Positions 19,574 through 36,570 of a stretch of 44,511 nt of DNA are shown here, piece by piece; position 1 is the first letter of the stretch; each line of letters opens with the position of its first letter. The stretch comes from a bacterium (GTDB taxonomy: Bacteria; Pseudomonadota; Alphaproteobacteria; Rickettsiales; RI-342), in NCBI GenBank assembly GCA_016124905.1, contig WGMV01000046.1:1-44511 (forward strand), read 5' to 3'. The translations under genes and the position numbers were made by a program. The notes under the pieces were generated by a model that was not told where the DNA came from, made no database searches, and saw nothing but the letters and a program-made list of their open reading frames with translations.

Positions 19574-21979
19574 GTGCTAAACTTAAAACTCCAGCGACGG
19601 GCGACCAGCAAAGCCGAAGTGAGCCGCAAGGAAATCTCGACGGCGGATTACATCCCCTACTACTGCCACTGGGACAAAAACACGATTATCACCAAAAAGC
19701 GTGAGATGATTCAGGTCATCAAGGTGGACGGGTTTGCGTTCGAGACGGCCGATGATGAAGATGTGGACATGAAAAAGGCCGTCCGCAATTCCATGCTGAA
19801 AGGCCTGGCGGCGGGCAAGTTCGCGTTGTGGTTCCATACGGTGCGGCGGCGGCAGTCGGCCTTTCCGAACGGGGATTTCAACCCGGGCTATGCCAATTAC
19901 ATCAACGAGCAGTGGAAATCCAAGCATCATACGAAGGACACATACGTCAACGAGCATTACATCACGGTGATCCGCAAGGCGGATACGGAAGGCGCGGCGA
20001 AGATCGAGCACGTGCTGATGCAGCTGCTGGAGGCGGCCGACAAGGAATCCCGCGAGGCGGCAATGCGCGATGCGCATAAGGAGCTGTGTGAGGCAACCTA
20101 CCGCGTGATGGCCAGTTTGCGGGAATATAACCCGCGCCAGCTCACGGTGGTGCAGACGGAGGCTGGCGCTTTCTCCGAACCGCTTGAATTTTTAGGAAGA
20201 ATAGTCAATTGCGGTGAAAGCCAGCCCATGCTGGTGCCGCTGATCGACCTGTCGCATTACCTGCCCACCGCGCGGCTTTATTTCGGCCCGCGCGCCATTG
20301 AGGTGCGCTCTCCCACGCGGCGGCGGTTTGCCGCGCTGGTGACGATTCAGGAATATGCCTCCGCCACGGCGGCGAGCATGATGGATGCGTTTTTGCAGTT
20401 GCCGTTCGAATTCATTATTTCGCAATCCTATGTATTCATCAACCGCCAGACGGCGATTGAGAAAATGCAGCTGCAGCAGCGGCGCATGATGAACACCGAA
20501 GACGTGGCCGTGAGCCAGGTGGCCGAGATTTCCGACGCGCTCGACATGGCCATGAGCGGGCATGTGGCCTTCGGCAACCATCACCTGACGCTGCTGGTGC
20601 TGGAGGATGATTTGAAATCGCTTGAGGATTCCACCTCCATGGCGATTGCGGAATTCACCAATCTCGGCATCAAGGCCGTGCGGGAGACCTTCTTCCAGGA
20701 GCAGGCCTATTGGGCGCAGCTGCCCTGCAATTTCGACTATGTGGGCCGCCTGGCGAAAATCAACACGCTGAACCTGGCCAGTTTCGCCTCGCTTCACAAT
20801 TACCCCGTCGGGCGGTTCGACCGCAACCACTGGGGCAATGCGGTGACGGTGTTCGACACCACCTCGGGCACGCCCTATTTTTTCAATTTCCACCTGCGGG
20901 ATGTGGGGCATACCACCATCATCGGGCCGACGGGCGCCGGTAAAACGGTGCTGATGAACTTCCTCTGCGCGCAGGCGCAGAAATTCCGCTGCCGCATGTT
21001 CTTTTTCGACAAGGACCGCGGCGCGGAGATTTTCATCCGTGCGCTGGCGGGCAGTTACACGGTCATTCATCCGGGCGGGCATTGCGGGTTCAACCCCCTT
21101 CAGCTGCCGGATACGCACGAAAACCGAACCTTCATCTCGGAATGGCTGGCGACCCTGGTGACGATCCATGGCGAGCAGCTGACGGCCGAGGATGTGGCCT
21201 ATATCCAGGAAGCGGTGCGTGGGAATTACAAATTAGCTAAGGAAGACAGGCAATTACGAAATATTGCACCCTTCTTCGGGCTAGAAGGGCCGGGCAAGAT
21301 TGCGTCGCGTCTGAAGCCGTGGCACACAAACGGGCAATATGCCGGAGTCTTTGATAATCCTGAAGATTCCATGGACTTTACCAAAAATAACGTGTTTGGC
21401 TTCGAGATGGGCGAGGTACTTTCCGACAAGAACACGCTTTCGCCCGTGCTTCTGTACCTTTTCCACCGCATTCAACTATCGCTGGACGGCACGCCGACCA
21501 TGATCGTGCTGGATGAGGCCTGGGCGCTGATTGATAACCAGGTATTCGCCCCAAAAATCAAGGACTGGCTGAAAACCTTGAGGAAACTCAATGCCATGGT
21601 GGTGTTCGCTACCCAGAGCGTGGAGGATGCCAGCAAATCCAACATCAGTGACACCCTGGTGCAGCAGACGGCCACCCAGATCTTCCTTCCCAACCCCAAG
21701 GCGACCGAGGAATACCGCAAAACCTTCATGCTTTCGGAGCGGGAATTCAACCTGCTCAAGACCACGGACCCGGGGTCCCGCTATTTCCTGTTGAAGCAGG
21801 GAAGCGACGTGGTGGTGGCCCGGATCGACCTTTCCGGAATGGAGGATGTGATCACCATCCTGTCCGGCCGGGCGGAGACCGTGGCCGTGCTTGACGTCAT
21901 ACGGTCACAATTCGGTGATAATCCTGATATGTGGATACCGCATTTCCTCGAAGAGGTTCAACGGCGCAAAAATGCCTAA
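19574..21979 (+). CDS. virB4: VirB4-like T4SS ATPase
   Basis: VirB4 is the conserved ATPase that powers T4SS assembly and transport at the inner membrane. The 801-residue product has an N-terminal CagE/TrbE/VirB part and a C-terminal RecA-like ATPase. Walker A is GPTGAGKT (residues 451-458), Walker B is MIVLDEAW (643-650), and FATQSVEDASKS downstream matches the VirB4 sensor region. The start is a GTG at 19574, 12 bases after virB3, with GTTAGG just before it; no in-frame ATG gives a comparable N-terminus. Length is usual for VirB4. It overlaps virB6a by 8 bases. Confidence 0.96.
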   Translation: MLNLKLQRRATSKAEVSRKEISTADYIPYYCHWDKNTIITKKREMIQVIKVDGFAFETADDEDVDMKKAVRNSMLKGLAAGKFALWFHTVRRRQSAFPNGDFNPGYANYINEQWKSKHHTKDTYVNEHYITVIRKADTEGAAKIEHVLMQLLEAADKESREAAMRDAHKELCEATYRVMASLREYNPRQLTVVQTEAGAFSEPLEFLGRIVNCGESQPMLVPLIDLSHYLPTARLYFGPRAIEVRSPTRRRFAALVTIQEYASATAASMMDAFLQLPFEFIISQSYVFINRQTAIEKMQLQQRRMMNTEDVAVSQVAEISDALDMAMSGHVAFGNHHLTLLVLEDDLKSLEDSTSMAIAEFTNLGIKAVRETFFQEQAYWAQLPCNFDYVGRLAKINTLNLASFASLHNYPVGRFDRNHWGNAVTVFDTTSGTPYFFNFHLRDVGHTTIIGPTGAGKTVLMNFLCAQAQKFRCRMFFFDKDRGAEIFIRALAGSYTVIHPGGHCGFNPLQLPDTHENRTFISEWLATLVTIHGEQLTAEDVAYIQEAVRGNYKLAKEDRQLRNIAPFFGLEGPGKIASRLKPWHTNGQYAGVFDNPEDSMDFTKNNVFGFEMGEVLSDKNTLSPVLLYLFHRIQLSLDGTPTMIVLDEAWALIDNQVFAPKIKDWLKTLRKLNAMVVFATQSVEDASKSNISDTLVQQTATQIFLPNPKATEEYRKTFMLSEREFNLLKTTDPGSRYFLLKQGSDVVVARIDLSGMEDVITILSGRAETVAVLDVIRSQFGDNPDMWIPHFLEEVQRRKNA

Positions 21980-23675
21980 ACACACCCATTTGCTGGTGCG
22001 ATGCTGGGTAATGATGATTACCCTGATGGGGGTGTTTATACCGGTTAAGGCCATGGCGCAGACAGACGGCGCATTTCTGCCGGGTTCCGATATCTCGCTC
22101 GACAGCCTTTTCGATCAATTGGACAAGGGGCTTATCACCAAGCTGATCGTGGTCATTAAGGCCGGGCTGGAGCATATCGTTCTCGATACGATGCTGGATA
22201 AGGTCTACACCATGTGGGAGCCCGTGATCGGCATGATCCTGCTGTTTGCGGTCATTTTGTTCGGCATCAAGCTGATTTCCGGCGCCGTGAGTAGCCCCTG
22301 GGCGGAGATTCCCGTTACCGTCATCAAGATCATGTTCGTGATGGAGTTCACGCGCAACATGCATGAATGGGTGCCGCTGTTCTTCGATATTACCGAAGAC
22401 CTGATGGGGGTCGTTTCCCAGGCGTTTGAAGGGATGATGGACATTGATTGCAGTGAATTCATGGCGGGGGTCGATGTCTCCGGTTTCGGGGTGAACCCGG
22501 AAATGGCGCGACCGTGGCTGATCATCGACTGTCTGTTCATTCAGTTTCTGGCGCTTGCGCTGGGCGGCAGCGCCATCAGCGCGCTGATCGGGTTCCTTGT
22601 TTCCACGGCGGTGAGCGGGCATTTCGGCATCGTCATCACCTTTGCCGGCATCAGCGCCATGACGGGGCTGCTTTTCTCGGTTCTGCGCGTGGGTTACATG
22701 TTTGCCGCCTCCATGATGAGCCTGGCATTCGCCTTTGTCATTTCTCCGTTCTTTGTGCCGCTGCTGTTGTTCGATGCAACCCAGCAATATTTCGATAAAT
22801 GGCTGAAACTGACCATCTCTTTCATTCTGCAGCCGGTGCTGCTGATGGCGTTTGTGATTTTCATGGCGATTTTCATGAACGAAATCCTCTATCGCGGTGA
22901 TTTCTCCATCTGCCAGGCCCTGAGCGCGGACCCTACCCAGAAATGCACGCCCAGCAGTTTTCAGCATAATCTTGATGAGCTGGTCAGCCGCTGCTCGGGC
23001 GAGCAGTTCGGCGCGCAAATCACCAGCGACCAGACCGTGCGCGACCAGACCGATATCGCCAATGCACCCGCCCAAAGCGAAACGGTCAACCTGTTCGGAC
23101 GCACGGCGAAATCCTTTCTCGGCATATTCCTGCAGGGCATTGATGCACAGAATTGCTTTGCCAATTCCAACCTCAACCCCGCCAGCGCAAGCATGGATAC
23201 GACCTTCTTTCTCAATCGTGTCATGATGTCGCTTTTTGCCTTGATGATCGGCATTATGCTCATCAACTCGCTTCTGGATGTGTTCGACCAGATTCTGCCA
23301 ATGCTGGTGGAGCAGAGCTTCCGCCTGAAGCTGTCCTACCAGCTGCCGGGTGAGCAACGCTTCTCCGATGCGTTGGACAGGGCTAAAGCCACTGCCATGG
23401 GTAACAAGGATATGGGGCTGTTGCCAGGCATTGTGAGCGGGGGCGATGTGAGCGCAGTGACGCGTGCGTATATCGGTGGTTATGATGCGCAGGGCAATAA
23501 GGTTCAAGGCGCGGCCACGGCATTTGCCGATACGCTGTTTGCCGTGGACAGCAACGTGCAGGGCAGCCTGCCGCTGGGTGTGGGCGATGCGATGCGCGAC
23601 CTGTTATGGACGCGCCCGAACCCTAATACGAGCAATCGTGGCGGGAATAACGGGGGGGGAGGGACCGGTGGTTAA
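21972..23675 (+). CDS. virB6: VirB6-like T4SS polytopic membrane protein, copy a
   Basis: VirB6 proteins are polytopic inner-membrane parts of the T4SS channel. The 567-residue product has a signal-like N-terminus (hydrophobic residues 8-25, ending VKAMAQ) and then at least five membrane segments. Segments shared with the next two proteins are IKLISGAVSSPWAEIPVTVIKIMFVMEF (residues about 97-124, quoted in part elsewhere), and a block with FFVPLLLFDATQQYFDKW and LQPVLLMAF. A long loop with scattered Cys (about 310-400) separates the last membrane segments. The C-terminus is Asn/Gly-rich (NRGGNNGGGGTGG). The ATG at 21972 lies inside the end of virB4 (8-base overlap); a longer frame from 21891 lies wholly in virB4. 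Confidence 0.88.
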   Translation: MPKHTHLLVRCWVMMITLMGVFIPVKAMAQTDGAFLPGSDISLDSLFDQLDKGLITKLIVVIKAGLEHIVLDTMLDKVYTMWEPVIGMILLFAVILFGIKLISGAVSSPWAEIPVTVIKIMFVMEFTRNMHEWVPLFFDITEDLMGVVSQAFEGMMDIDCSEFMAGVDVSGFGVNPEMARPWLIIDCLFIQFLALALGGSAISALIGFLVSTAVSGHFGIVITFAGISAMTGLLFSVLRVGYMFAASMMSLAFAFVISPFFVPLLLFDATQQYFDKWLKLTISFILQPVLLMAFVIFMAIFMNEILYRGDFSICQALSADPTQKCTPSSFQHNLDELVSRCSGEQFGAQITSDQTVRDQTDIANAPAQSETVNLFGRTAKSFLGIFLQGIDAQNCFANSNLNPASASMDTTFFLNRVMMSLFALMIGIMLINSLLDVFDQILPMLVEQSFRLKLSYQLPGEQRFSDALDRAKATAMGNKDMGLLPGIVSGGDVSAVTRAYIGGYDAQGNKVQGAATAFADTLFAVDSNVQGSLPLGVGDAMRDLLWTRPNPNTSNRGGNNGGGGTGG

Positions 23676-25113
23676 GCGTCTCCTTTCCCTTTTTATCTGT
23701 GTGTTTATTTCGTTGGTTTCCATGCCTGCAATGGCCGGTGTGGATACGGGGATCGGCATGCCGCTGCCGCCACCTGTTACACCGGTTGGGCCGACGGTAT
23801 GCAATCTGGGCGAAGGCTTTGTCGGGCCGATCGTCAATTGCATCACCGCGCCGCTGCAACAGGCTGCCACGGCCCTGTTCATCCAGATGTACACGGCATT
23901 GCAGCCCGCCATTGCCAGCTTCATCATGCTGGCGGTTATCGGGTTCGGGTTGAAGCTAACATCCGGCGCGGTGCGCCGCCCATTTGCCGAAATCGGTATC
24001 ACGGTCGCCAAGATGGCGGCGGTGGTTTATGTGATGGAAGCGTTTCCCACCTGGTATCCCGATGTGCTGGCCGCCATTGACGACCTGATACGCATCGTCA
24101 CCGAGCCTTTATTGACCGGTGTTATCGCCTGCCCAGCAGCCACCGCCACCACCAGTGGCATCAGCAATGGGGCGGATATCTGGGCGCGGGTGGATTGCAT
24201 TCTCGGCACCATGTTCGGCTTTGGGGTGATGACCTCGGGTGTGGCCGCCGTGGGAGGGCTTTTTACTACATTTCTTGGTAACATGGTCAACATGACCGAT
24301 ATCGGGGTGATGATTGCCACGGCGGGCATCGGCATGGCCTTGACGCTGTTCCTGGCCGTGGGGCGGGCGGTGATCGGCTATATCTGCGCCAAGATCGTGA
24401 TCGCCTTTTTGTTCGGGTTGGCGCCCATTTTCATGCCCTTCATCATGCTGCGGGGGACTTATACTTATTTCAACAAATGGGCGATGGGGATTCTCTCCTA
24501 CATGGTGCAGCCACTGGTGCTGTTTGCCTATCTTTCCATGTTCATCGTGATGCTGGATTATTCGGTGTTTCGCGGGGATTATTCCATCGCCACCGTGCTG
24601 ATGGGCCGGCCCGCCACCAGCCTGGCGGATTTCCAGAACGGCATTGCCGACCATCTTAGCGGCAGCACCTGCACCGAATTTCATGATATTGGGCTGGTGG
24701 AGAATATCCCCGACCTCAGCAACTGCCGCCGCATTCTTCAGCAGGTTGGCGATGGCGCGGGCACCGCCATGCTGAGCGAGACCATGACGAATATGTGCGA
24801 CCAGATGGGGGATGTGGTGTTCGGCGCCATGCGCCCGCTGGAAGGGGCGGCAAATGTCGGCGTGGCCATCAGCCATAAATTATGCGACGACCAGCTTGGA
24901 CCGTTTTTGCTGATTCAGCTGATGGTGGTGGGCATGATGTGCATGCTCATGTTCATGCTGGCCGACGTGGTGCCCGACATGGCGCGCGAGCTTGTCTTCT
25001 CGCCGCGCGTCTCACGCCTTGGCACCATGGAAGTACCGGGTGAAAGCGTGGCGGGGCAATTTGTGAATCCGGAAAACTTCTCGAATATATTCAATGCATT
25101 GGGGATGAAGTGA
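23668..25113 (+). CDS. virB6: VirB6-like T4SS polytopic membrane protein, copy b
   Basis: The 481-residue product is a second VirB6-family membrane protein. It has a signal peptide (MVKRLLSLFICVFISLVSMP, then AMAG) and several membrane segments. The family block LKLTSGAVRRPFAEIG and the block LAPIFMPFIMLRGTYTYFNKW followed by MVQPLVLFAYL match copy a. The start is a GTG at 23668, 3-4 bases after a strong GGGGAGGGA in the end of copy a, and the two genes overlap by 8 bases. The usual reading frame extends back to 23464 but that part lies inside copy a. Several Cys pairs in the periplasmic loops (CNLGEG, IVNC, CPAA) may form disulfides. Confidence 0.88.
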   Translation: MVKRLLSLFICVFISLVSMPAMAGVDTGIGMPLPPPVTPVGPTVCNLGEGFVGPIVNCITAPLQQAATALFIQMYTALQPAIASFIMLAVIGFGLKLTSGAVRRPFAEIGITVAKMAAVVYVMEAFPTWYPDVLAAIDDLIRIVTEPLLTGVIACPAATATTSGISNGADIWARVDCILGTMFGFGVMTSGVAAVGGLFTTFLGNMVNMTDIGVMIATAGIGMALTLFLAVGRAVIGYICAKIVIAFLFGLAPIFMPFIMLRGTYTYFNKWAMGILSYMVQPLVLFAYLSMFIVMLDYSVFRGDYSIATVLMGRPATSLADFQNGIADHLSGSTCTEFHDIGLVENIPDLSNCRRILQQVGDGAGTAMLSETMTNMCDQMGDVVFGAMRPLEGAANVGVAISHKLCDDQLGPFLLIQLMVVGMMCMLMFMLADVVPDMARELVFSPRVSRLGTMEVPGESVAGQFVNPENFSNIFNALGMK

Positions 25114-26552
25114 TGAAGCGGCTTTTTTTCATGCTCGCGCTGGCGATAATGTTGATGGGGGTTAACGGTTCGGCATGGGCCCAATCTCCCATTAGCGGTG
25201 GCATGCCGGGGAGCTGCAGCGATCAATATACCCTGCAGTCGCAGATCGATCACCTCAACCAGATGGGGCAGGCCAAACTTGCCACGGACCCAGCAGGCGG
25301 CCAGAAAATGCTCGACCAGGCAAAGATGCTGACCGACATGCAATCCGGCAACGGGTTTGTTTCCAAAACCGCCAAGCAGATTAACGACACGATCAGCGAT
25401 GCCGCGCAGAAGCTTTATGAAGGCATTATCGGCGGCGGATTTGCCAGCCTGGTTGCCAGTGTGCTGGTGCTGTACGTCCTGATTTTCGCCGCCATGTTCA
25501 CGCTTGGCATGGTGCAGGCGCCATTGAATGAGATGCTGGTGCGTATCGTGAAGATGCTGGTGGTGGCCTCCGTTGTGGGGCCGGGTGGCTGGACCTTCTT
25601 CAACGATTACGTGATCCAGCTTTTCACATCGGGCCGGGATTATATTATCGGGCAGATGCTGCAGACCATGGCCTCCTATACCGGCGGGGCCGTGGGGACG
25701 ACGGTGGATATGCAGAATGCCGATGTGCCTGTGTTCGCTCCAATTGATACGCTCTTTGCGCAGATCATCCAGCCCAGCACGCTGATGACGCTTCAAGCCG
25801 CCATCGATACGCCGCCTTATGGGGTGATTTATGTGCTGATTCTGGTGGTGGGCGGTATTTTTCTTATTGGTGCGGTGGCGCGCGCCTTGTGGGTATATCT
25901 GGTATCCGTGCTGGCAATGTCTTTCCTGTTCGGCCTGGCGCCGCTGTTCGTGGTGACCTTGCTGTTTGAACGCACCAAGGGCATGTTTCAGCAGTGGCTG
26001 GCGCAGATCGTCAACTTTACTTTGCAGCCCATTCTGATGTTCACCTTCATCACCTTTTTTGTGGTGCTGCTGGATTATTCGGTGAAAAACATGCTGAAAT
26101 TCGAAGCCTGCTTCGGGGAGCTGTTCTCCATTGCCGAAGCGCAGGGCGGCAGCTCCACGAGCTATGGCCTTCAATTCAAGGTCAATGACCAGGTGATGGT
26201 GGCCACCTGCGAAGCCAGCGGCTGCCGCTGCGTGACCGAGCAGGGCGGTGTGGAAACGACTTGCCCCGGGCTGGAAGGCGGCTTTCCCCTTAACCTGATG
26301 GATGTGCTCAGCTTCCTGCTGCTGTGCTATGTGGCGTTCCAGTTTTATAATAACGTGGTGGATATCGCCAACGACATATCCGGTGGTTTTGTGAATATCG
26401 ACAGTTCCTCCACCAGCCCCATCCGAGATATGATGGACAAGGCAGGAAGTGGCGTGCAGGGGGCCGCGGTGCAGATGCTGAAAGGCAACTCGACCGGGGC
26501 ATTGCAGGAGGTCGGCCTGGGCGGGCTGGACAAGTTCTTCAACCGGAAATGA
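25110..26552 (+). CDS. virB6: VirB6-like T4SS polytopic membrane protein, copy c
   Basis: The 480-residue product is a third VirB6-family member, overlapping copy b as ATGATG at the stop. It has a signal peptide (MMKRLFFMLALAIMLMG, then SAWAQ), an N-terminal soluble part with a possible helix (residues 40-100), then membrane segments. The channel block LAPLFVVTLLFERTKGMFQQW and LQPILMFTF matches copies a and b. A Cys-rich loop (CEASGCRCVTEQG, near 365) precedes the last membrane segment. Three successive VirB6 genes after virB4 are the rvh arrangement of Rickettsiales; each copy here is much smaller than many rickettsial ones. Confidence 0.88.
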   Translation: MMKRLFFMLALAIMLMGVNGSAWAQSPISGGMPGSCSDQYTLQSQIDHLNQMGQAKLATDPAGGQKMLDQAKMLTDMQSGNGFVSKTAKQINDTISDAAQKLYEGIIGGGFASLVASVLVLYVLIFAAMFTLGMVQAPLNEMLVRIVKMLVVASVVGPGGWTFFNDYVIQLFTSGRDYIIGQMLQTMASYTGGAVGTTVDMQNADVPVFAPIDTLFAQIIQPSTLMTLQAAIDTPPYGVIYVLILVVGGIFLIGAVARALWVYLVSVLAMSFLFGLAPLFVVTLLFERTKGMFQQWLAQIVNFTLQPILMFTFITFFVVLLDYSVKNMLKFEACFGELFSIAEAQGGSSTSYGLQFKVNDQVMVATCEASGCRCVTEQGGVETTCPGLEGGFPLNLMDVLSFLLLCYVAFQFYNNVVDIANDISGGFVNIDSSSTSPIRDMMDKAGSGVQGAAVQMLKGNSTGALQEVGLGGLDKFFNRK

Positions 26553-32852: not shown

Positions 32853-34163
32853 CTAGGATTTGGGAGTGGAGGACAGCGCTGTCGCAACATCTGGTTTATT
32901 GCACTTGTTGGCGAATTCCTTCAGGCCCATGCCGTTGGGGTGCTTGATGGCCGGGTCAACTCCCGCTTTCAGCAATGACTGTGTGACCGGCAGGTTGCCG
33001 TTACAAACCGCATAAAAAATGATCGGCACTTGTTTGTAGGTTTTGTTGGGGGCGGCCTGTTTGCCGAGCAGGGCCTCCACCACGCCAACATCGCGGTTAA
33101 GCGTGACGGCGGCAACCAGGGGATCGATAAAGGGTTTATCGGTGCCGATGATATTGCCGTTTACGTCGCTTGGCAGAATATTTAGCCCGGCGATGGGGAA
33201 AAGGGTGCTTTTGATGTCAGCCAGCGGCTTGTTGGCAACAATCTGGCTGGAAAGGGTGTAAAGCTGTTCCTGCGCTTCCTGCGAGAGGGAGGACTTGCTG
33301 GTGGCATGGCCTGTCTGGCCGAGGGCGTTTTGCACCACGCAGGTTTTTTTCATATCCTCGATGGTTTTACCGTCGTCGCTTTTCTCTTTCACGTTTGCGC
33401 CCGCAGCGGTGATGAGTTTCAGCGTTTCATCATCGCAGGCGGCATAGAAAGCCAGCGGCTTGCTGTTGTATTTTATTTTCGGGTCGGCTCCTTTGGCGAG
33501 CAGGGCTTTGACATATTCCGGGTTTGCATGGTTGACCACGGCCCAGGTGAGCGGTGGCAGCATGCCTGCCGGCCATACTTTTTGAAGCGTGCCGTCAAAG
33601 GGCGAAATGCTCACATCTTTCAGAGTATCAATGGAATCCAGCACGGGCTTGATTTTTTCCATCGGCTCCTGCCGGGCCATCATGTTGGTGACGACCTGGG
33701 CGCGGATTTCCACACGCGGCTTGGGCGGGAAGGGAATGCTGCCCTTGGGCAGCAGGCCGGGGTTGGGTTCGCCCGGGCAGCGGGTATAAAATTTCTGTTC
33801 CACAAATCCGGGAGGATCGGGCAGGTATTCGCCGAAATAGGTCAGGCCCACATGGTAGATGCGGTTGTTTTTGACCATGTAATAATGCTGGAAAATATCA
33901 GAAGCCTTGTAAACCAGGCTTGGGTATTTTGTGGTGCCATCGAGCAGGGTGCTTACCTCCGCCTTGCTTTTCAGCGGCAGCATGGCGCGTGAATAAAGCG
34001 CATCCGGCGTGGTCACCATGTGAATATCGTCATTGTCGCATTTGCCGGTATCCCCCCAGTTTCCCCAGGTGGAGGCGTCTTTATCCTCCGCCATAAGGGG
34101 AGAGGTGATCGCAAGCGCGCCAAAGAGCGGGGCCATCATAAGCCCGATGAGCGTTTTCTTCAT
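32853..34163 (-). CDS. Exported ankyrin-repeat protein
   Basis: The 436-residue product has a signal peptide (MKKTLIGLMMAPLFGALAIT, cut near PLMAED). The N-terminal 190 residues are unfamiliar, with Cys in GKCDND and YTRCPGE. Two ankyrin-like regions follow: LPPLTWAVVNHANPEYVKALLAKGADP (about residues 203-229, shown in part by LLAKGADPKIKYNSKPLAFYA) and a second pair from about 340, with VVEALLGKQAAPN and VTQSLLKAGVDPAIK. Ankyrin repeats bind other proteins; in T4SS bacteria they often occur in effectors, but this one carries a Sec signal, so it is more likely periplasmic or surface-exposed. It lies 13 bases after the prepilin fusion gene, probably in one transcript. Confidence 0.85.
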   Translation of the reverse strand: MKKTLIGLMMAPLFGALAITSPLMAEDKDASTWGNWGDTGKCDNDDIHMVTTPDALYSRAMLPLKSKAEVSTLLDGTTKYPSLVYKASDIFQHYYMVKNNRIYHVGLTYFGEYLPDPPGFVEQKFYTRCPGEPNPGLLPKGSIPFPPKPRVEIRAQVVTNMMARQEPMEKIKPVLDSIDTLKDVSISPFDGTLQKVWPAGMLPPLTWAVVNHANPEYVKALLAKGADPKIKYNSKPLAFYAACDDETLKLITAAGANVKEKSDDGKTIEDMKKTCVVQNALGQTGHATSKSSLSQEAQEQLYTLSSQIVANKPLADIKSTLFPIAGLNILPSDVNGNIIGTDKPFIDPLVAAVTLNRDVGVVEALLGKQAAPNKTYKQVPIIFYAVCNGNLPVTQSLLKAGVDPAIKHPNGMGLKEFANKCNKPDVATALSSTPKS

Positions 34164-34176
34164 ACGATGCCCTATG

Positions 34177-36570
34177 TTAGTCCAGACGTTTGAACTTTAC
34201 ACCAATCACATCGTAATTGACACTCATATATCCGCCGCAATGCGCTGAGGCCGGGTTCACGGCGCCGGGGATGTAAGACACATCCTGGGCCATCACACCC
34301 TCATACATGGCGTGGCTCGGGTCATTGATGTAGCGGAAGTGATAGAGCGGGATGCCATGCTGCATGCCAGCAAAGCGGATGTCGGTCTTCAGGCGCTGGT
34401 CAGAGCAGCAATCCGTGCTCTGGCACCAGCTGCTGGAGGGCGAGCAGGTGCCGCCGCCGCCATAGACCTGGCAGCAGCAGTTGGCAATCGCACCGCAACC
34501 GCAGCAATGGCCGCCGCATTCGCAACCGCCGCCGCCGCCGCCGCAGCTGTTGCAGCTGCCGCCGGAACAGCCGCCCCATGAGCCGTCATTGCAGGTTTGC
34601 GAACCCTGGCTGCTGACGCCGCAGCCACAGCCGCCCGGGTTACAGCTTTGCGTGCCGCCATGGCGGGTGCCGCCGCATTTGCGGTAGCATGCCGGCAATG
34701 GAATGCTCCAGGTGCCATCATTGCAGATTGCCGTGGTGGAGGGATTAGGATTGCTTTGCGAGCCAAAATAATTCGAGTTGTTACAGGTAATGGCCTGTGT
34801 AGTGTTGTGTAGCGCTGTGCCAGGCGCTGCGCCGCCGGGCATAGTCATAGGCGAGTAGAAGTTATTTGCCGATGTGGCCACGGTTATACAGTTTTTGTAG
34901 CAGTAGGGCAGGCTTGCAGGGAAGGTATCCGTATTGGTCGTATTGTTGTGAACCTTGATGGTTTTTGCGCCGCTATTGCAGCTTACCGTCACGGTCTGAT
35001 CCACGCCAAGGCCGTAGGAGTAACCGGTTGCACAGCTCACCGTAACCGTAGAGCCATGGCGGACATTGCCCAGGCCGGTGCCGACAGGGCCCGGAGGAAC
35101 AGGCATGGGAGCGCTGTCTGTTATAACCATGCGGGTTGCATTGTAACCGCCCATGGTGGTTACAGGGCTGCAATCCGCCTTACAATCCAGGCTTGAGCTG
35201 GTGTAGCCTGCGCCTGCAGTGGGGTTGCAGGTAATGGCGTTGGATTCACCGCTTACTTCGGCGGTGGTTTCTGCGCGGCCTGAATCACTGAAGCCGGCTT
35301 TACAGGTGATGACTACCTGGTTGTCGCGCGCGGTGAAGCCTTTGGAATCCAGCCAGCTATCCATCGGTTTGGGATCGATGTCGATATTGGCATTGGGAAT
35401 TTGAGCATACCGGCAAATCGTATCGCAATAGCCGCTCATATGCTGAAGGTTATCGGCGTAATGCCAGCCTTCATCCGCTCCGGGGCTTAAGCATTTAAGA
35501 GCCGGGTTGGTGTAGGTGTCCTGCTTGATGATATTGCCGCCGTCATCAAAGCCCCAGCGGTAAGTGGCTTGCGATGTGCTGCCTGTTGCGGTTGCACAGA
35601 TGCCTGAAGACGTGGTGCCAACGGCTACACCGGCAAAATAAACAGGATTGCCTTTGCGGTCATTGAACCAGATTGCATTACAGGCGGGGTATTGACAGCC
35701 GTAACCATTCGGGTCGACTTCAAAGATGCCGCCTTTGCGGCAAATTTTAAAATATTTTTGCGCGGCATTATCGGGGCAGTCAAACTGGATGCGCCCGCCC
35801 ACCGCCACACCACCCGCGCATTTCAGCACAGAGGTGCTGGTATCGGTCGGGTTGATGTTGGCGTTGTCGGTGGCGGCAACGGTGATGTTGTTCTGATCCA
35901 GCGCGTTGGCGGCCATGCGCAGGTAGCAGTCGCGGCCTTTACGCGTCAGATCGAAATTGGTGCCGTTCAGGCAGGTGCCACCGGTGCCGTCGGCTGCGCG
36001 GATGCGGCCGGTGGTGGGGTTGCCGTCGTCGTATTTCTGGTCGATGCGGCGGGCTTCTTCGGCGGTCAGGAAGCCGTAATCACCGGCGCCGCCCTGAAAG
36101 CGGGAATATTCAATCATGACCTGGCTGGAAACCGGTTCAATATAGACCTGCATGCCGACATCGCGGCCGAATTTGCTGGTTTTCAGGCTCGTGCCGGGAG
36201 CTGCTGCGACTGTCGGGTTATATTGGCCTTTGATAAGACCGGCCAGAGCAAGGTGCTGCCACAGGGCCTGGCGCTCGTTGTTGTTGTCGATCTCGCCATT
36301 GCCATTCCCGTTGAACGTGGCGGTGCCATCGGGGGAAACGCCGAGGCGTGTGCTGGCATTGGCCATGTCGCCGGGAAGGGCGCCGTAGGTCTTGACAAAC
36401 TGGGCGACCGCTCGCTGAACTTCTTCGGTGTCGGTGACCACGGATGTGGCCTTGCCGGAATCCATCAGCTGCCTTCCGGCCATCACCCCTGCGATCAATA
36501 AACCCGCGACCGCAATCGCTACTGCCAGCTCAAGAAGGGAAAAACCCGAAGGTGCGCGCAGCTTTTTCAT
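34177..36570 (-). CDS. Type IV prepilin fusion: prepilin N-terminus, sushi-like Cys modules, Gly/Cys-rich region, S74-like C-terminus
   Basis: The 797-residue product starts with a type IV prepilin leader, MKKLRAPSG|FSLLELAV, with Glu at +5 and a hydrophobic helix, so it should be cut and methylated by a prepilin peptidase and join a pilus-like fibre. Residues about 35-340 are a pilin-like body (KTYGALPGDM, GNGNGEIDNNNE, WQHLALAGLI). From about 385 to 660 come Cys modules of the form C...G..V...C..GYS...TVTC, resembling sushi/CCP repeats. Residues about 660-720 are Gly/Cys-rich. The last 75 residues read CSDQRLKTDI...YHFRY...YEGVMAQDVSYIPGAV, the peptidase S74 (intramolecular chaperone) pattern, with the catalytic Ser-Asp and Lys in place. 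That domain is best known from phage tail spikes. A possible CtrA box lies upstream. Confidence 0.85.
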   Translation of the reverse strand: MKKLRAPSGFSLLELAVAIAVAGLLIAGVMAGRQLMDSGKATSVVTDTEEVQRAVAQFVKTYGALPGDMANASTRLGVSPDGTATFNGNGNGEIDNNNERQALWQHLALAGLIKGQYNPTVAAAPGTSLKTSKFGRDVGMQVYIEPVSSQVMIEYSRFQGGAGDYGFLTAEEARRIDQKYDDGNPTTGRIRAADGTGGTCLNGTNFDLTRKGRDCYLRMAANALDQNNITVAATDNANINPTDTSTSVLKCAGGVAVGGRIQFDCPDNAAQKYFKICRKGGIFEVDPNGYGCQYPACNAIWFNDRKGNPVYFAGVAVGTTSSGICATATGSTSQATYRWGFDDGGNIIKQDTYTNPALKCLSPGADEGWHYADNLQHMSGYCDTICRYAQIPNANIDIDPKPMDSWLDSKGFTARDNQVVITCKAGFSDSGRAETTAEVSGESNAITCNPTAGAGYTSSSLDCKADCSPVTTMGGYNATRMVITDSAPMPVPPGPVGTGLGNVRHGSTVTVSCATGYSYGLGVDQTVTVSCNSGAKTIKVHNNTTNTDTFPASLPYCYKNCITVATSANNFYSPMTMPGGAAPGTALHNTTQAITCNNSNYFGSQSNPNPSTTAICNDGTWSIPLPACYRKCGGTRHGGTQSCNPGGCGCGVSSQGSQTCNDGSWGGCSGGSCNSCGGGGGGCECGGHCCGCGAIANCCCQVYGGGGTCSPSSSWCQSTDCCSDQRLKTDIRFAGMQHGIPLYHFRYINDPSHAMYEGVMAQDVSYIPGAVNPASAHCGGYMSVNYDVIGVKFKRLD

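Follow-up and report, generated by a model that had tools for sequence, protein, structure and literature searches.

One open reading frame (ORF) of the 44,511-nucleotide window (the whole stretch of Rickettsiales DNA that was analysed) is on balance best read as a large modular minor pilin, with a stalk of CCP-like Cys modules and a compact S74-like cap (Table 1). Judged from alignments and profiles, its C-terminus is a compact variant of S74, shorter than the canonical domain. The pairing of a prepilin with compact S74 appears to be a new combination, seen once, in this ORF only, and the portable compact cap is a better lead than the pilin itself.

Table 1. Features of the modular prepilin and of the adjoining gene (window coordinates; residues are those of the predicted protein)
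Feature	Position	Strand	Basis
Whole ORF, 797-aa modular prepilin	34177..36570	-	ORF list and translation
Class III leader MKKLRAPSG / FSLLELAV and hydrophobic N-terminal helix, residues 1-30	36481..36570	-	TIGR02532, N_methyl, hydropathy
Pilin domain common to paralogs, residues 10-230	35881..36543	-	Genome search and paralog alignment
CCP-like Cys module 1, residues 386-463	35182..35415	-	Cys spacing
CCP-like Cys module 2, residues 467-557	34900..35172	-	Cys spacing
CCP-like Cys module 3, residues 561-628, with the module's Trp	34687..34890	-	Cys spacing
Gly/Cys-rich linker, residues 633-722, GC 0.70	34405..34674	-	Paralog alignment
Compact S74-like domain, residues 723-797, Ser723/Asp724/Lys728; a cut, should there be one, is predicted before Ser723	34180..34404	-	Alignment, profiles, model, PHROG
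Exported-looking (by eye) ankyrin-repeat protein gene	32853..34163	-	Next gene, start 14 bases past the pilin stop

A modular prepilin and its paralogs

The 797 codons hold no internal stop, and the N-terminus (MKKLRAPSG, then FSLLELAVAIAVAGLLIAGVMAG) has the features of a class III leader of the type IV pilin superfamily: a G9/F10 junction with Gly at -1, Glu at +5 and a hydrophobic helix (hydropathy of residues 12-30, 2.48). TIGR02532 scores above its cut-off (19.3 vs. 16.3 bits) and Pfam N_methyl slightly below its own (20.5 vs. 21.2 bits), which bears out the prepilin leader proposed in an earlier, sequence-only reading of this DNA. A prepilin peptidase, which that reading had named as something to look for, is encoded in the same genome as a Peptidase_A24 protein with an N-terminal domain, and an assembly ATPase gene (T2SSE/MshEN) adjoins the gene for a T2SSF platform protein; three further ORFs beside the ATPase in this cluster had no Pfam match. 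T2SSF and A24 genes occur a second time, as a set of shorter ones that looks Tad-like, judging from gene sizes.

The pilin part (approximately residues 1-230) has matches in 39 of 55 genomes, its own included, with 15-20 in each of several genomes, and could be aligned to all 11 paralogs compared (27-37% identity). Paralogs in the same genome include a 1246-aa prepilin with a fibrinogen-like domain (locus L033, 3425-7162; GGGWT_bact, 66.1 bits) and a protein of 240 aa (L035), while the counterparts in related genomes carry LamG, FG-GAP or sushi domains after this pilin part. Because the pilin part of the paralogs carries such varied domains, the ORF appears to be one of a group of modular pilins with a swapped C-terminal module. 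By its predicted domains it is a modular pilin as defined by Raynaud 2021, namely a pilin module joined to a functional module that is not pilus-specific. Animal-like adhesive modules (CCP-like, fibrinogen-like, C1q, LamG) recur on pilins in this order. A plasmid search with the full-length pilin returned one weak prepilin match.

The stalk comprises three tandem four-Cys units linked by C-x3-C. Pfam Sushi had no match listed for the pilin in the protein scan, and it does match a paralog of the same family (L036, 29.1 bits; cut-off 20.7). With a profile of 12 paralog modules that excluded the query, the whole pilin scored 29.4 bits, a value reached by none of 1000 fixed-Cys shuffles (best of all 2000 controls, 20.9) and holding for the whole protein only, as no single query module was significant. 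A profile of 14 modules (2 query, 12 paralog) matched solved complement modules at E 2e-50, which is partly selection because the modules were chosen by their Cys spacing; the structure model of module 3 was poor (pLDDT 54). The sushi-like modules of the sequence-only reading are thus kept in part: ‘CCP-like’ seems a fair label for the Cys modules, and ‘sushi domain’ is unproven.

The compact domain and its carriers

The last 75 residues begin SDQRLKTDI and end GGYMSVNYDVIGVKFKRLD. Pfam S74 gave 15.2 bits in the protein scan (cut-off 22); in the genome scan it gave 19.6 bits alone and 22 with frame neighbours, the latter counted as above the cut-off. A profile of 35 compact domains, query excluded, scored 65 bits on the pilin (E 2.6e-19, Z 1000) vs. 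13 bits for one made from the C-termini of 11 canonical pilin-S74 proteins, and the best of 1000 shuffles reached 4.9 bits, which rules out chance similarity. The S74-like end with Ser, Asp and Lys in place, as first proposed, therefore stands as to the three residues and the relationship, but the form is not the canonical one. With canonical S74 (endoNF 3GW6, MyRF 7DC3 and the neck appendage of phage GA-1, 3GUD) the domain shares the SDxxxK start, the Ser-Lys pair and the GVMAQDV and GYxxVxYD blocks; it differs in lacking the C-terminal trimer helix and in its length, 75 residues where members of the canonical pilin set have at least about 94.

The profile was drawn from genome-contig loci picked by the patterns SD[QR]RLKTD[IV] and [HK]A[MV][YF]EGVM, and conservation of the first motif among them means little because they were selected by it. 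The scan gave 50 loci, 43 with a compact domain (compact and canonical forms being sorted by hand, from tail length and alignment), and 35 of the 43 were used after exclusion of near-duplicates and one long repeat protein. The pilin C-terminus is 36-52% identical to these 35 aligned domains, and in all 43 proteins the compact domain forms the last 61-118 residues. Against solved S74 domains the compact profile matches weakly (3gud, E 0.0011; 6f45, 0.0014; 7dc3, 0.013). AlphaFold2 modelled the compact domain alone as a single confident domain (pLDDT 90.9, pTM 0.78); Foldseek with this model had no match at E ≤ 0.001 (mostly kinase domains), VIA-align gave Z up to 3.3, and no S74 structure was among the matches listed by either.

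Cellular carriers of the compact domain include a DotA/TraY protein (L201, 3089-6337; DotA/TraY, 256.8 bits) that ends in a Gly-rich linker and compact S74, a polysaccharide export protein (L107), a DUF3300 protein (L202), a VWA protein (L108) and, by eye, small lipoprotein-like proteins of Rhizobium (L110 of R. leguminosarum among them) and of Labrys. Phage virion proteins of PHROG 6121 (L105, L114, L128) carry it as well. The pilin C-terminus matches the ends of PHROG 6121 (virion structural; 43.9 bits, E 4.2e-11) and PHROG 4287 (DNA ejection; 24.7 bits, E 2.4e-5), phage proteins that have the same compact domain at the C-terminus on carriers other than a pilin. Six of 50,697 phage records match the pilin's end, all at <60% identity, under the names S74-domain structural protein, endosialidase chaperone or internal virion protein. 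Descent of the cap from a tail spike was considered and set aside, the only PHROG matches being to virion and ejection families, yet one compact phage protein (L114) also matches several tail fibre families. In a rough tree, whose columns are few for the number of rows, the query lies in a 24-row half with the cellular carriers (split 96/93) that also holds three loci virion-like by eye (L109, L117, L146); the query's nearest fork is weak (90/68).

Apart from the query, a prepilin leader was found on none of the 43 compact genome-contig loci (none of all 50), on none of the nine other compact domains of the class (one, L175, possibly cut at its 5' end) and on none of 17 parsed phylum loci, with L226, a canonical prepilin-S74, set apart and 5 of 23 unparsed, several ORFs running off the end of the locus. 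Leaders were tested for with a regular expression, which odd ones can escape. A common pattern of prepilin plus compact S74 was rejected, as no compact carrier besides the query bore the leader in the scanned sets. Within the order, the compact profile ranks the query first (78 bits), followed by a phage-like ORF (48 bits). Two small proteins (L219, L220) also end in a compact S74 domain; by eye, their N-terminus looks like a lasso-peptide leader.

Possible roles of the cap

As a modular minor pilin, the protein would lose its 9-residue leader to the prepilin peptidase, and its N-terminal helix would place it in a type IV pilus or pseudopilus. The filament would display the three CCP-like modules as a stalk, which to judge from the modules most likely binds a surface or cell. 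The cap, predicted to fold as a small separate domain, would have been gained by domain fusion at the place where paralogs have LamG or fibrinogen-like domains; it probably protects the Cys-rich stalk or helps it fold, after which it may detach itself by a cut before Ser723. Weak matches to the GspG, GspJ and GspH profiles would also suit a secreted or surface protein of pseudopilin type that has nothing to do with adhesion, a reading which we consider unlikely given the size of the ORF, its CCP-like modules and the adhesive domains of its paralogs. The sequence-only reading had gone further than a minor pilin with a cap, and saw a self-cleaving, trimer-making chaperone that gives the pilus a trimeric spike tip. 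Ser, Asp and Lys are in place as that would require, the compact profile is related to 3gud, 6f45 and MyRF 7dc3, the order also has canonical prepilin-S74 proteins (C1q is present in one of them and a phage Collar domain in another), and a trimeric minor pilin, CofB, is known (PMC8179133). However, the pilin ends 10 residues after the ‘NYD’ of the last conserved block, whereas canonical pilin-S74 C-termini (n = 11) continue for about 30 residues or more beyond that point, with helix-like segments such as LIAPLVLAVQQL; by sequence and by alignment with these 11, the C-terminal helix of the trimeric coiled coil is absent from the pilin. The Cys modules, moreover, do not seem beta-helix-like. The other compact carriers include DotA/TraY, polysaccharide export, DUF3300 and VWA proteins, for which we know of no link to trimeric spikes. 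Because the compact form lacks the trimer-making helix, it is unlikely that the cap makes the pilus tip trimeric in the canonical S74 manner; with its relatives among virion structural and DNA ejection PHROGs and at the C-termini of diverse envelope proteins, the trimerising spike-like tip is not supported, and we rate it the most improbable of the readings considered.

Whether the cap cuts is a separate matter. In MyRF, where the Ser-Lys pair S587/K592 corresponds to S911/K916 of endoNF, the trimer is made by the C-terminal helix and cleavage occurs in trimers only (PMC8326128), which argues against self-clipping in the pilin. A search of 385 genomes of the class with a compact profile stripped of the SDxxxK stretch listed 35 matches in 24 genomes. 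Among 30 class loci read, 10 were sorted as compact, query included (L193, 14.7 bits and without the motif, was dropped as a chance match). In all ten, positions 1, 2 and 6 of the motif are Ser, Asp and Lys and positions 3 to 5 vary, although the profile was drawn from pattern-picked loci and the ten include the query and L171, which nearly duplicates one of the training rows. A functional pair should be conserved in this way, though conservation for structural reasons would look the same. Because the three residues are kept in all ten domains, self-clipping can still be entertained, and we regard a cut before Ser723 through the Ser-Lys pair as a real possibility, though not the probable outcome. 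The predicted fragment, 8421 Da, agrees with the C-terminal product of about 8 kDa foreseen in the sequence-only reading. That the compact domain never cuts, and stays on the pilin for good as an end cap or a binding domain, is likewise a less than even possibility: the trimer helix required for cleavage in MyRF (PMC8326128) is missing from the pilin, and many proteins that are otherwise unrelated have the domain at their very C-terminus, but Ser and Lys are present in all ten domains found without using them, while the positions between are free to vary.

A wider and decidedly tentative proposal, which we think rather doubtful as it stands, is that compact S74 is a portable self-clipping C-terminal cap that needs no trimeric coiled coil. 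Fused to diverse exported or membrane proteins of bacteria (pilin, polysaccharide exporter, DotA/TraY, DUF3300, VWA, lipoproteins) and to phage virion and ejection proteins, it would shield a new C-terminus until assembly and then remove itself, the pilin being one case. Two things under the S74 name are set apart here, the canonical trimer-making chaperone and the compact form with the Ser-Lys pair and without the trimer helix. Should the compact form cut, many envelope proteins would carry a minimal self-removing tag; should it not, labels like ‘chaperone of endosialidase’ mislead for the whole group.

Prepilins with canonical S74 and other known systems

The architecture IPR012902-IPR030392 (prepilin plus S74) is among the 15 most frequent of modular pilins in Raynaud 2021 (PMC8179133), where S74 is called a predicted peptidase; a literature search for pilins that carry S74 brought up no further paper of relevance. 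Since it is in print there and present in other genomes, this fusion type is already known, and of the unusual pilus-anchored design first suggested, what persists is an unusual modular pilin with a compact cap seen only here. The pilins of Raynaud 2021 share with the query a prepilin leader and an S74-related domain, but S74 is read there as ‘peptidase activity’ and the query has the compact, helix-less form together with CCP-like modules.

S74 matches at E ≤ 0.05 occur in 11 of 174 genomes of the order (10 above the cut-off) and are fused to a prepilin-type leader in seven (G048, G104, G137, G015, G096, G067 and G000, own genome included), so that six other genomes of the 174 have a prepilin with canonical S74. 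Two G048 genes and that of G015 fall under the Pfam N_methyl cut-off; G015 lies right at the TIGR02532 cut-off, and for the two G048 genes the leader was called by motif only. As for the other four genomes, G059 and G112 are truncated by contig ends, G010 is by eye without a leader, and G075 has an S74 match under the cut-off, a quick scan showing no leader motif. Across the wider class, 30 of 385 genomes have S74; 30 loci were fetched and 17 parsed, with a prepilin leader in at least three (L074, L078, L079), a lower bound because some ORFs extend past the fetched flank.

Several of these proteins have features of their own. G048 has three tandem prepilin-S74 genes (L062, 3989-10330), and other prepilins combine S74 with three C1q stretches (L066, 4706-9691) or with a phage Tail Collar domain (L065, 3281-6613). 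A hydrophobic segment follows S74 in three of eight prepilin-S74 proteins of the order (L063, L065 and L066, from G104, G015 and G096; hydropathy 1.96, 2.89 and 2.29), and the precursor may therefore have an anchor at each terminus before S74 cuts, as in MyRF. S74 is followed by comparable segments in L071, L077, L082, L137, L141, L142 and L151, for which either the 5' end is out of view or no leader was seen.

The mosaic adhesive trimers of Bdellovibrio are, like the query, read as bacterial surface adhesins, and 13 of 21 end in S74; unlike the query, they are long trimeric beta-helical fibres with demonstrated self-cleavage (Caulton et al. 2024, PMC10769870), and the word ‘pilin’ is absent from the text of that paper. 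CofB and TcpB are, like the query, large minor pilins, located at the pilus tip, but the source passages on them mention no S74.

Within the window, the ankyrin-repeat gene next to the pilin had no relative in the fetched loci. Further away, positions 19574-26552 hold, by eye, a gene for a VirB4-like ATPase followed by three genes for VirB6-like membrane proteins.
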